A stretch of 32,283 nucleotides of DNA from an uncultured Bacilli bacterium (lineage in GTDB: Bacteria; Bacillota_I; Bacilli_A; RF39; UBA660): the NCBI GenBank assembly GCA_947628485.1, contig CANRAA010000009.1:1-32283 (forward strand), given 5' to 3'. How positions within the stretch are numbered: the stretch's first letter is position 1; every line of letters starts with the position of its first letter. Below the pieces are notes generated by a model. That model saw only the letters and a program-made list of their open reading frames with translations, had not been told where the DNA came from and did no database searches. The position numbers and the translations under genes were made by a program. Below, piece by piece: positions 14,588 to 19,417 of this stretch.

Positions 14588-14956
14588 TTAATAGTAAATT
14601 ATAACCATAATTAGAAAAAAAATACCAGCAAATATCGCAATTAATGATGTTGATAGTTCTAAAGATACAGAATCAACAGGATTATTAATATTATATAGTA
14701 GTTTAATTTTTTTACCTAAACGTTTTTTAATATTAGAACTAGAATTTTCAACATAACGATATAAATAACCATTTACTTCATATTCGATTATAGATGAATA
14801 CGTAGTTGAATCATTATGTTGGCGTGTTTTATAATCAACAATTGTACCAGTTACTTCTTGATAATTACCCGTAAATTTTTTTATATAATACTTTAAAATT
14901 CTATATAAACCATATGCTATAAAGAAAATTGGTAAACCATATAATAATATTCTCAC
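14588..14956 (-). CDS. DUF3592 membrane protein
   Basis: 122 residues: an N-terminal helix (3-19), a beta-rich domain with EVTGTIVDYKTR, YSSIIEYEVNGYLYRY and KIKLLYNINNP, and a C-terminal helix (about 102-121). This is the layout of DUF3592 proteins. The start is GTG (14954-14956), sharing one base with the TAG stop of the zinc-ribbon gene; AAGGAGG is 9 nt upstream inside that gene. Translational coupling is therefore likely. Function unknown. Confidence 0.8.
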   Translation of the reverse strand: MRILLYGLPIFFIAYGLYRILKYYIKKFTGNYQEVTGTIVDYKTRQHNDSTTYSSIIEYEVNGYLYRYVENSSSNIKKRLGKKIKLLYNINNPVDSVSLELSTSLIAIFAGIFFLIMVIIYY

Positions 14957-15801
14957 TATCTTTCCTCCTTAAACAAATTTTGATAATTATTATCAAAAAC
15001 ATTATATTGTATATCGTAATTTAAAATAGATATAGCAATGCATTTATTAGAAACATTTTTGACATACATATCTATCCCTTGATAATTAATTTTTATAAAA
15101 CCTAATTTAGTTAATTCATCAATATAACTATTAATTATATTACTTTCAATAGGTTCATTAAATACAATAAAACTATAACTTACTTTACCTAACTCGGGAT
15201 CAATTTCATTTTTTATATTCATAGAAATTAATACTTTTTTATTATAATTAGTATATTTATATAATGTTGGAATACTTACTCCATCAATAATCAACTCTTT
15301 TTTATTAGAAATATCTTGTAAAGGGGAAAACAAATGAAATAGTAATACTAAAGAAGTCAATATAACACCGGTAATACATAATATTTTACTTTTTTTATAA
15401 AATATAGAAACTAATATTGTCGTAATGCCTATTACCAAAAATATTATTTTACCTACTTCTATAATTTTTACAACATTTAAACTATGGGTTTTTAATAAAT
15501 AAAATAATAAAAATATTAATCCCATAAATAATAAAAATAATATAAGTGATATTTTCTTATATAAATTGACACCTTTAGTTACTTTAGAAGAAATTTCTTC
15601 TATTTTTTCATTATTAGTGATTTCACTATTTTCTAAATCATTTTTATAACCACATTTAGTACATACATCATTAACAATACTATTAACACTATGACAATTT
15701 GGACAACTATTTTCTTGTACTGGTTCGGGATTAACAACTCCACAATATGGACATTTTAACAAATTGCTTGAGTATTCCCCTAAACAATTAAAGCATTTCA
15801 T
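14956..15801 (-). CDS. Double zinc-ribbon membrane protein
   Basis: 281 residues. Four CXXC knuckles (C3/C6, C17/C20, C33/C36, C47/C50) form two zinc ribbons in the cytoplasmic N-terminus. Three to four hydrophobic helices follow at about 85-170, then a C-terminal domain of about 110 residues (GKVSYSFIVFNEPIESNIIN and ISILNYDIQYNVF regions). Zinc-ribbon plus membrane proteins are common in this phylum and mostly uncharacterised. AGGAG precedes the ATG; its own promoter (TTGACT/TATAAT) lies just upstream. Coupled to the DUF3592 gene. Confidence 0.78.
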   Translation of the reverse strand: MKCFNCLGEYSSNLLKCPYCGVVNPEPVQENSCPNCHSVNSIVNDVCTKCGYKNDLENSEITNNEKIEEISSKVTKGVNLYKKISLILFLLFMGLIFLLFYLLKTHSLNVVKIIEVGKIIFLVIGITTILVSIFYKKSKILCITGVILTSLVLLFHLFSPLQDISNKKELIIDGVSIPTLYKYTNYNKKVLISMNIKNEIDPELGKVSYSFIVFNEPIESNIINSYIDELTKLGFIKINYQGIDMYVKNVSNKCIAISILNYDIQYNVFDNNYQNLFKEER

Positions 15802-15853: not shown

Positions 15854-15925
15854 TTTCTAATTTTTTCTAATTTTTTATAATTGTATAGATATGGAACAAA
15901 AGTAAAACTCAATAAATAAATTTAT

Positions 15926-16050
15926 TTCGTTTCACCTTGATAAGCCTCACGGCTTATCTTTCCTGCTTCATTGGATTTTACTCCTCCACAGGCCATATTT
16001 CCGACAGTCGCTGCCGTACTTGTTTTTATTTTTTTATTTTCCCTAGGTAC
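15926..16050 (-). ncRNA. Orphan omega-RNA-like element (right end of an IS200/IS605 tnpB element without tnpB)
   Basis: The 361-bp gap 15802-16162 has no gene. On the minus strand it holds, in order, hairpin CGGCAG-CGA-CUGUCG (16002-16016), GGAGGAGUAAAAUCC (about 15974-15988), the block GAAGCAGGAA (15960-15969) and an 8-bp hairpin GATAAGCC-GTGA-GGCTTATC (15939-15958) followed by AAGGTGAAAC. The order GAAGCAGGAA then hairpin is what I know from right ends of IS605/IS1341-type elements, where the TnpB guide RNA (omega RNA) is made. No tnpB, fragment of it, or tnpA is present. Instead a TTGACA-17-TATAAT promoter sits directly upstream. The sequence after the last hairpin, beginning near 15930, would be the guide. 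It could be a decayed element or a retained guide RNA acting with a TnpB elsewhere. The family match is from memory, not a search. Confidence 0.6.
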
Positions 16051-16056
16051 ATTTTA

Positions 16057-16085
16057 ATTATACTATACAAACAAATGAATGTCAA
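16057..16085 (-). promoter_or_regulatory. Consensus promoter of the omega-RNA-like element
   Basis: Minus strand: TTGACA (16080-16085), exactly 17 bp, TATAAT (16057-16062). Transcription should begin near 16050, about 30 nt before the first hairpin. This is among the best sigma-A matches in the window, and no reading frame follows it. Confidence 0.75.
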
Positions 16086-16124
16086 GACACAATTTCACTT
16101 TTTTGTATGACTTTCTTATTATAT

Positions 16125-16149
16125 AAAAAAGTGATAAGTGCATCTTATC
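16125..16149 (-). terminator. Terminator of the 285-residue membrane protein gene
   Basis: Minus strand: GATAAG, loop ATGCA, CTTATC, then ACTTTTTT. It isolates the omega-RNA promoter from upstream transcription. Confidence 0.65.
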
Positions 16150-16162
16150 TTATTATTCTTTT

Positions 16163-17020
16163 TTATATTTTATACTTTAATTTTTTATTGGCCCTTACTA
16201 TCATATAGATAGACATAGAGGTATTTATAATACACACAACAAATCCCATTATGCTAGTCATTATTATTTTAAATTCACTATCATTGGTGCCAAACTCGGA
16301 AACCATAGCAACTTCCAAAGAAATCATGGAAATCATCGCCACCGTTAAGTTAAGACATTTGCTTGAGGCTAAAAGTGGGCTATGGTCTTTTCTAAATTTA
16401 ATCACATTTATTACAGCACTTATAATTAGATAAAAATCATACATAGCCACAATATAAATAATGAATCCAGCATAGGTTATTCTTTGATTTTGTCTAATTA
16501 TTAAAATAATCATCCCCATTAATATTAAGTTTAGAAATAAAAGGATTATCCCCGTAAGTCTTAGTTTTTTATATTCATCTTTTAAATTTTTACCAACTTC
16601 ATTTTTTAAATCTTTCACAATAGATAATTTCATTAAACAAAGTATTAAATAATAAATGGCAAAAGTAATAAACCACCAAGACATATAATATATTCCTGTA
16701 CCTAATTTAAAAATACCATAAACAAAATGCAATAAAGTAGCAAATGCTAGACTAAATTTTGTTATTAAAAGTTCGTGTTTTTTATACAACTCATAAGTTT
16801 TTGATTTTTTAATAGCATTATTACTAAATTCACATATTTTATAAAACCAAATACAAAATATAATTAGAGCATAAGTAGATAAAAGATAACTTATATAAGC
16901 AAGAGGGGTATCTTCTAAATGACAACTAAAAACATAGATAAGTAAACCAAAATCCAAATTAAATAAAATGAATCCAATTATTTTATTAGGAACAAATAAT
17001 TTACTTAATATCTTTTTCAT
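16163..17020 (-). CDS. Integral membrane protein, about eight helices, unknown function
   Basis: 285 residues with about eight hydrophobic helices (near 14-33, 40-60, 85-108, 110-132, 153-175, 180-204, 220-242 and 250-275) separated by short basic loops. No transporter motif or catalytic signature is visible. AGAGGTG precedes the ATG, a TATAAT lies about 25 nt further up, and clear terminators lie on both sides, so it is transcribed alone. Confidence 0.7.
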   Translation of the reverse strand: MKKILSKLFVPNKIIGFILFNLDFGLLIYVFSCHLEDTPLAYISYLLSTYALIIFCIWFYKICEFSNNAIKKSKTYELYKKHELLITKFSLAFATLLHFVYGIFKLGTGIYYMSWWFITFAIYYLILCLMKLSIVKDLKNEVGKNLKDEYKKLRLTGIILLFLNLILMGMIILIIRQNQRITYAGFIIYIVAMYDFYLIISAVINVIKFRKDHSPLLASSKCLNLTVAMISMISLEVAMVSEFGTNDSEFKIIMTSIMGFVVCIINTSMSIYMIVRANKKLKYKI

Positions 17021-19006: not shown

Positions 19007-19093
19007 AAAAATCCCCCTAAGAAAATTTATTAATTTAATTATACTCGATATTTTATCATATTTTTAAGAATTTTAAAATTGTAATTTACTTAA

Positions 19094-19417
19094 TTACTTA
19101 TTAGTTAATTTATAAATAACTGTTCCTATTACTAAACCAATCAAAGAATCCAAAAAATACCAAACTATATGAATAAAAGCTGTTTCATTATAGTAAATAT
19201 AAATTGATGGTATAAATAATATTGCCACAACTAAAGGATAAAAATATTTTACTTTTTCTTTAGATATACTAGCTATTATTATCGAAAGAATAAATGTTCC
19301 CACTATAAGTAAAAATATTAAACCCATTATATCTGTTGGTCCTATAAATAAAGGGACAATATAAAACAAAAATAATTGTATTGTTAATATTAATATTTCT
19401 TTCCAAAATTTTTTCAT
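19094..19417 (-). CDS. Small membrane protein, four helices
   Basis: 107 residues, almost wholly hydrophobic: helices near 8-26, 28-50, 58-74 and 80-104. No motif is recognised. GGAG precedes the ATG. It may be co-transcribed with nothing else; the next gene is 87 bp away. Confidence 0.6.
   Translation of the reverse strand: MKKFWKEILILTIQLFLFYIVPLFIGPTDIMGLIFLLIVGTFILSIIIASISKEKVKYFYPLVVAILFIPSIYIYYNETAFIHIVWYFLDSLIGLVIGTVIYKLTNK

Follow-up and report, generated by a model that had tools for sequence, protein, structure and literature searches.

A 230-bp IS200/IS605-type element from an uncultured Bacilli bacterium that joins a tnpB promoter to an omega-RNA scaffold

Standalone omega RNAs have already been reported. 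Altae-Tran et al. are said to have described them in 2021 for the IscB of Ktedonobacter racemifer, with the nuclease thought to be served in trans, and standalone or trans-acting omega RNAs reportedly also feature in the 2023 work of Meers et al.; the TldR study is said to concern nuclease-dead TnpB proteins with guide RNAs. The family of short elements presented here resembles the standalone omega RNAs in having no adjacent nuclease gene, and goes beyond them in that an origin by promoter-RNA deletion fusion, an empty site and apparent selection on the promoter are documented for a TnpB family. With the TldR guide RNAs it shares a TnpB-derived guide RNA located away from an active transposon, but neither a nuclease-dead TnpB nor a conserved off-site target was seen for this family.

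In IS1341-like IS200/IS605 elements and in ISDra2, tnpB is followed by an RNA that extends to the right tip and has a flank-derived guide, the left end is preceded on its 5′ side by a T-rich motif, the target is not duplicated, and TnpB carries the catalytic residues D, E, D (PMC8612924, PMC10097598); the present family is like them in all of these respects. Unlike them, the copy studied here is without tnpB, the target is TTTTR rather than TTGAT, and no tnpA was found with the family. For ISDra2, cutting of the vacated site and restoration of the copy have been proposed (PMC8612924), and for elements of this kind carried on plasmids an RNA-guided gene drive has been described (PMC11870625).

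Palindrome-associated elements (PATEs), such as those of Haloquadratum walsbyi, are short IS605-derived elements without a transposase, some of which arose via core deletion, according to a paper that predates omega RNAs (PMC3119063). As described there, PATEs and the present elements are alike in being short, in having no transposase gene and in leaving the target unduplicated; a near-terminal palindrome and the lack of terminal inverted repeats may be shared as well. The difference is that the present family fuses the tnpB promoter to a complete, covarying omega RNA, both apparently constrained. No description of a miniature element made of a tnpB promoter and an omega RNA was found in the openly accessible literature searched.

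Extent, insertion site and guide of the window element

The window is a stretch of 32,283 nucleotides on contig 9 of a draft genome (G000; 1.30 Mb, 90% complete). Empty-site and multicopy alignments show that the locus, on the minus strand (16123-15894), is a non-autonomous element of the IS200/IS605 type (tnpB-only), present here as a copy of 230 bp. It is too short for a transposase gene and has its ends in common with three intact tnpB elements. Its features, with those that border it, are as follows.

16133..16149, minus strand: hairpin GATAAG-ATGCA-CTTATC, then a T-tract; from its sequence the probable terminator of the upstream minus-strand gene (16163-17020)
16124..16129, minus strand: target/TAM motif TTTTTA, directly 5′ of the left end, doubling as the T-tract of the upstream gene's terminator
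15894..16123, minus strand: complete MITE/PATE-like element, from left tip TATAATAAG to right tip TTGTTC, defined by sister-species filled/empty-site and multicopy alignments
16098..16123, minus strand: left-end tip TATAATAAGAAAGTCATACAAAAAA, kept in short and full-length elements
16080..16085, minus strand: −35 hexamer TTGACA, the tnpB promoter in the parents, homologous in L030, L031 and L032, conserved over 20 copies
16057..16062, minus strand: −10 hexamer TATAAT, the tnpB promoter in the parents, conserved over 20 copies
16021..16056, minus strand: leader, a degenerate tnpB 5′ UTR plus a variable A-rich spacer
15894..16020, minus strand: scaffold of the omega RNA (right-end RNA), 127 nt up to and including the right tip; same RNA directly 3′ of tnpB in full elements, with covariation and fold
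16002..16016, minus strand: scaffold stem 1, CGGCAG/CUGUCG, in which two of the pairs show compensatory changes
15962..15992, minus strand: scaffold stem 2, CCUGU/GCAGG, enclosing the GAAGCAGGAA block and an inner 3-bp stem; covariation
15939..15958, minus strand: scaffold stem GATAAGCC-GUGA-GGCUUAUC; fold and covariation
15900..15937, minus strand: right-end long stem GUGAAAC...GAGUUUUAC; covariation, and also a stable single-stranded-DNA hairpin
15878..15893, minus strand: guide, CATATCTATACAATTA, 16 nt of the flank; found without a mismatch behind TTTTTA in the G020 empty site

The sister species G020 lacks the insertion at the orthologous site, where its flanks are 89-96% identical. With a slash at each junction, the empty site reads ...ACTTATCATACTTTTTA/CATATCTATACAATTAT... 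(around the junction, CTTTTTA/CATATCTATAC) and the filled site of the window ...CTTTTTTA/TATAATAAG ... TTTTGTTC/CATATCTATACAATTAT...; the insertion is clean, lies 3′ of TTTTTA in the T-tract of the upstream terminator, and leaves no target duplication. Because the empty site fixes both borders, the element is assigned to 16123-15894 and the guide to 15893-15878. The unit as first delimited in a reading of the sequence alone was therefore too short, and the guide, which had been placed near 15930, lies about 35 nt away, since 15930 falls inside the last stem of the scaffold. A second filled/empty comparison, between the short element L112 of G020 and window positions 19011-19359, is not clean because the region differs otherwise: opposite L112 the window (19012-19358) has some 350 bp of different sequence, which includes a 107-aa ORF, and the two alleles are not related by a simple insertion.

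A terminator upstream, part of the same sequence-only reading, does exist as a weak hairpin and T-tract (16149-16124). A similar hairpin is present in the empty site; the probable terminator thus predates the insertion, and the unit looks insulated upstream because the element landed in the T-tract of that terminator.

An RNA that continues past the right tip would in each copy include the next 16 nt or so of flank as its guide. The coordinates of this flank are established by the alignment, and its use as a guide would follow from ISDra2 biochemistry; the match between guide and empty site is likewise what would be expected, by analogy, if a TnpB omega RNA is compared with the site it was donated from (PMC8612924). 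Across five genomes the 16-mer matches exactly only its own flank and the empty site of G020; all other hits have two mismatches, so that no target at 0-1 mismatch was found elsewhere in these genomes. The guides differ at every complete copy. No match to the scaffold was found in viral contigs.

These data bear on the proposal that the locus is a domesticated, trans-acting guide RNA that regulates a target in the chromosome or in a phage, with TnpB or a TldR-like, nuclease-dead TnpB as its partner. An independent promoter, an isolated unit and the precedent that TldR reportedly provides would fit such a role, but the window insertion is absent from the sister species, the guide is flanking DNA that matches nothing beyond its own empty site at 0-1 mismatch, guides vary among copies, and every TnpB copy that covers the active site retains its motifs, with no dead one seen. 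We consider domestication scarcely credible.

Similar guides do occur in three species, at the tip-less copies L004, L114 and L122, and are followed there by TTTATTGTC repeats (TTGTC..TTTATTGTC). These are promoter-driven omega-RNA copies inside a repeat array, and those in G020 and G027 occupy the orthologous place beside a yvcK-like gene. A conserved, domesticated guide was considered for them and rejected because the repeats are bound to that locus (found in 3 of 38 genomes, essentially there alone, with one extra two-mismatch hit in G020) and because the promoters of those full-length AlbA_2-like homologues that were inspected (about 52-54% identity) have 12-bp-type tandem repeats that differ in sequence. 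Most likely, the element at L004 inserted into the operator array of the downstream AlbA_2-like gene, which accounts for the like guides against domestication. Genes for AlbA_2-like ATP-binding/HTH regulators (L219, at G000:C70:3134-4438; L220; L222-L227) have 10-13-bp tandem repeats just upstream, lineage-specific in sequence (TTTATTGTCCAG, TTTCTTACGACA, TTTACTAGGAAA), which are probably their own operator arrays. Self-targeting or binding by the L004, L114 and L122 guides is conceivable, since they partly match neighbouring repeat units behind TTTA.

Parent elements, promoter and omega RNA

The locus had been taken for an orphan, a description that does not hold: the source genome contains 32 whole or partial matches to the element, and the window copy is one of many that are nearly identical. 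Eight short copies (L001-L003, L005-L009) have both ends and the promoter, L004 has the promoter and lacks the left tip, and L016 is shorter and promoter-less, which makes at least ten short copies; three full-length elements with an intact tnpB share the left end and the guide-RNA right end, and other copies are cut by contig ends. At the left end of the full-length elements TTGACA or TTGGCA, 17 bp and TATAAT are followed by GGAGG and tnpB, and at the right end the same RNA comes directly after tnpB. Neither a tnpA nor a tnpB ORF adjoins the window element, as had been noted from the sequence; the intact tnpB parents reside elsewhere in the genome.

The full-length elements encode a TnpB of 386 aa with OrfB_IS605 and TNB domains. 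It matches ISDra2 TnpB (8h1j) with an E value of 3.6e-59; the marginally better top match is an AI-designed nuclease. The RuvC residues D, E, D are kept in every TnpB copy covering the active site, and no nuclease-dead TnpB was seen among these.

Since it shares the tnpB promoter and the omega RNA with the full-length elements, the window copy is an internal-deletion derivative, in which loss of tnpB joined the left-end promoter to the right-end RNA. Its TTGACA-17-TATAAT promoter (16085-16057, minus strand) matches the consensus at 12/12 positions; the sequence-only reading was right about its presence at the locus, although what it took for a promoter of the unit's own derives from the tnpB promoter of the parent. 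In the leader the ribosome site GGAGG is gone, with CCTAGGGA in its place, and from the promoter transcription would be expected to start near 16050.

Such deletions fall into at least five classes, and all but one kept promoter and scaffold. Short forms with different internal junctions in the sister species measure 256-262 bp (G028, G011), 435-528 bp (G007) and 732 bp (G012), and those of G001 measure 540-543 bp, with tnpB residues 11-58 and 281-334 remaining; each has a promoter-like site and a whole scaffold, the G007 promoter (TTGAAT-17-TATAAT) having been read by eye. The G007 left ends have only about 26 bp in common with the window family. The sister genomes with the element were binned from metagenomes and belong to uncultured Bacilli; the names of their samples ("Lapin") suggest a rabbit origin. 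In G000 (C24), the 155-bp copy L016 has no promoter and a left end trimmed to about 26 bp, and despite this loss sits behind a terminator-like hairpin and a T-rich tract.

The minus-strand hairpins and the GAAGCAGGAA block are present as had been described, and 15900-16050 folds at −39 kcal/mol (z −4.5), with no equally stable shuffle. An omega-RNA-type scaffold from a tnpB element, also part of that reading, was borne out by its homologues beside tnpB in the same and related genomes. In a genus-wide alignment of 56 distinct right ends, with the structure drawn from the window copy, 96.9% of cells are paired and 11/37 pairs show two-sided changes. There are 49 cells with such changes, against 9.0 in shuffles (0/500) and 2-11 in slid controls, counts that derive from a reference structure of one aligned sequence and are inflated by kinship. 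The compensatory changes map to stem 1 and stem 2, both of which precede the end hairpins. In three short copies (L009, L107, L123) the same replacement, GGCTTATCA-AGG to GGCAAAACATAGG, breaks the lower half of the GATAAGCC stem.

An Rfam covariance match, which had been set out as a check on this identity, was not obtained: the window RNA gave no match at the gathering or even the permissive threshold, and for that reason Rfam membership is not claimed. Rfam holds only part of the TnpB-type RNAs and a match is not strictly defining; despite the negative result, the identity of the RNA as the 3′ RNA of a tnpB element is clear.

Mean diversity was compared across 20 complete short copies drawn from four genomes. 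It is 0.045 in the −35 and 0.017 in the −10 hexamer, while the 17-bp spacer between them reaches 0.26 (Fisher p 0.006). The part of the scaffold that lies upstream of the end hairpins has a value of 0.088 and the A-rich spacer one of 0.24 (Fisher p 0.0004-0.006); these p values are approximate and indicative only, because the copies share recent ancestry and are not independent. Promoter and omega RNA of the short form both appear to be under constraint.

The same figures argue against an inert MITE, that is, against the short copies being passive deletion derivatives with no RNA function in trans, in which promoter and scaffold persist through youth or as DNA ends needed for transposition. 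Y1 transposases need a single-stranded-DNA hairpin, and in single-stranded-DNA folds the right-end hairpin is strong (z −4.8) and the left-end one weak (z −1.1); no inverted repeat between the tips was seen by eye. The right-end hairpin is likely a transposase signal, and some of the scaffold conservation could reflect what the right end needs for transposition and not an RNA. The existence of the promoter-less L016 also suits an inert MITE, as does the account of PATEs as degenerate derivatives (PMC3119063). Yet in the same copies whose spacers diverged, the −35 and −10 hexamers and the scaffold upstream of the end hairpins did not; compensatory changes maintain RNA stems 1 and 2 outside those hairpins; and because the G007 left ends share only about 26 bp with the window family, the promoter region is not a required end. 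We therefore regard the inert MITE as unlikely.

Mobility, target choice and significance

The preferred reading, which we hold to be probable, is that the locus is a non-autonomous copy of the IS200/IS605 group (tnpB-only, IS1341-like) carrying a promoter-omega RNA fusion, the omega RNA probably serving TnpB in trans. The element would have been moved by a Y1 transposase (TnpA) supplied in trans, and the window RNA would be transcribed. It could be used by a TnpB encoded at another locus, as the sequence-only reading had suggested: the intact TnpB of the full-length elements probably binds the omega RNAs of short copies in trans. On excision, TnpB would probably cut the vacated site, and repair from the sister chromosome would then restore the copy. 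One observation against this reading is that the promoter-less L016 still adjoins a T-rich target.

No Y1 transposase with window-family ends was found in 38 genomes of the genus. The only one in the source genome (L033 1380-2000; G000:C50) is IS200-like, with ends unrelated to the tnpB family, and none was seen in G020 and G027, both rich in short copies and incompletely assembled. An IS607-type serine recombinase was considered as mobiliser and rejected, as the genome gave no Resolvase match.

The 41 insertion sites collected from G000 and the sister genomes are T-rich at −7 to −1. By a simple script, 29 of them directly follow a terminator-like hairpin and T-tract; the corresponding share is 19% for all T-run sites (p 2e-12) and 29% for T5+ runs in intergenic DNA (p 8e-8). 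Examples of terminator-linked insertions are the left flanks of L005, L026, L117 and L142. A preference of this kind would explain insertion without harm to genes.

That the promoter of the element matters mainly through read-through into the downstream gene (14956-15801) is highly unlikely. Read-through is possible because the stretch from the right tip to the start of that gene showed no terminator, but the gene has, as the sequence-only reading proposed, a separate promoter-like site (15853-15824, 11/12), which exists in the empty-site allele as well, and other copies of the element adjoin unrelated genes.

A broader form of the preferred reading, to which we give an even chance, is that these are "guide-only" transposons composed of two ends, a promoter and a guide RNA, of which dozens of copies, no two with the same guide, share a few TnpB proteins in trans for RNA-guided retention. 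Their settling behind intrinsic terminators would follow from the use of the T-tract there as the target motif, and independent internal deletions within a single genus, each sparing promoter and guide RNA, would have produced them more than once.

The family lends itself to a direct test, since it provides some 20 naturally occurring copies, a predicted TAM and an exact empty site. If its omega RNAs load TnpB in trans, RNA-guided retention would explain the persistence of non-autonomous IS200/IS605 derivatives. A genome would then host a few nucleases together with a scattered set of guides for them, which may represent an intermediate between guide systems tied to transposons and stand-alone ones such as CRISPR.
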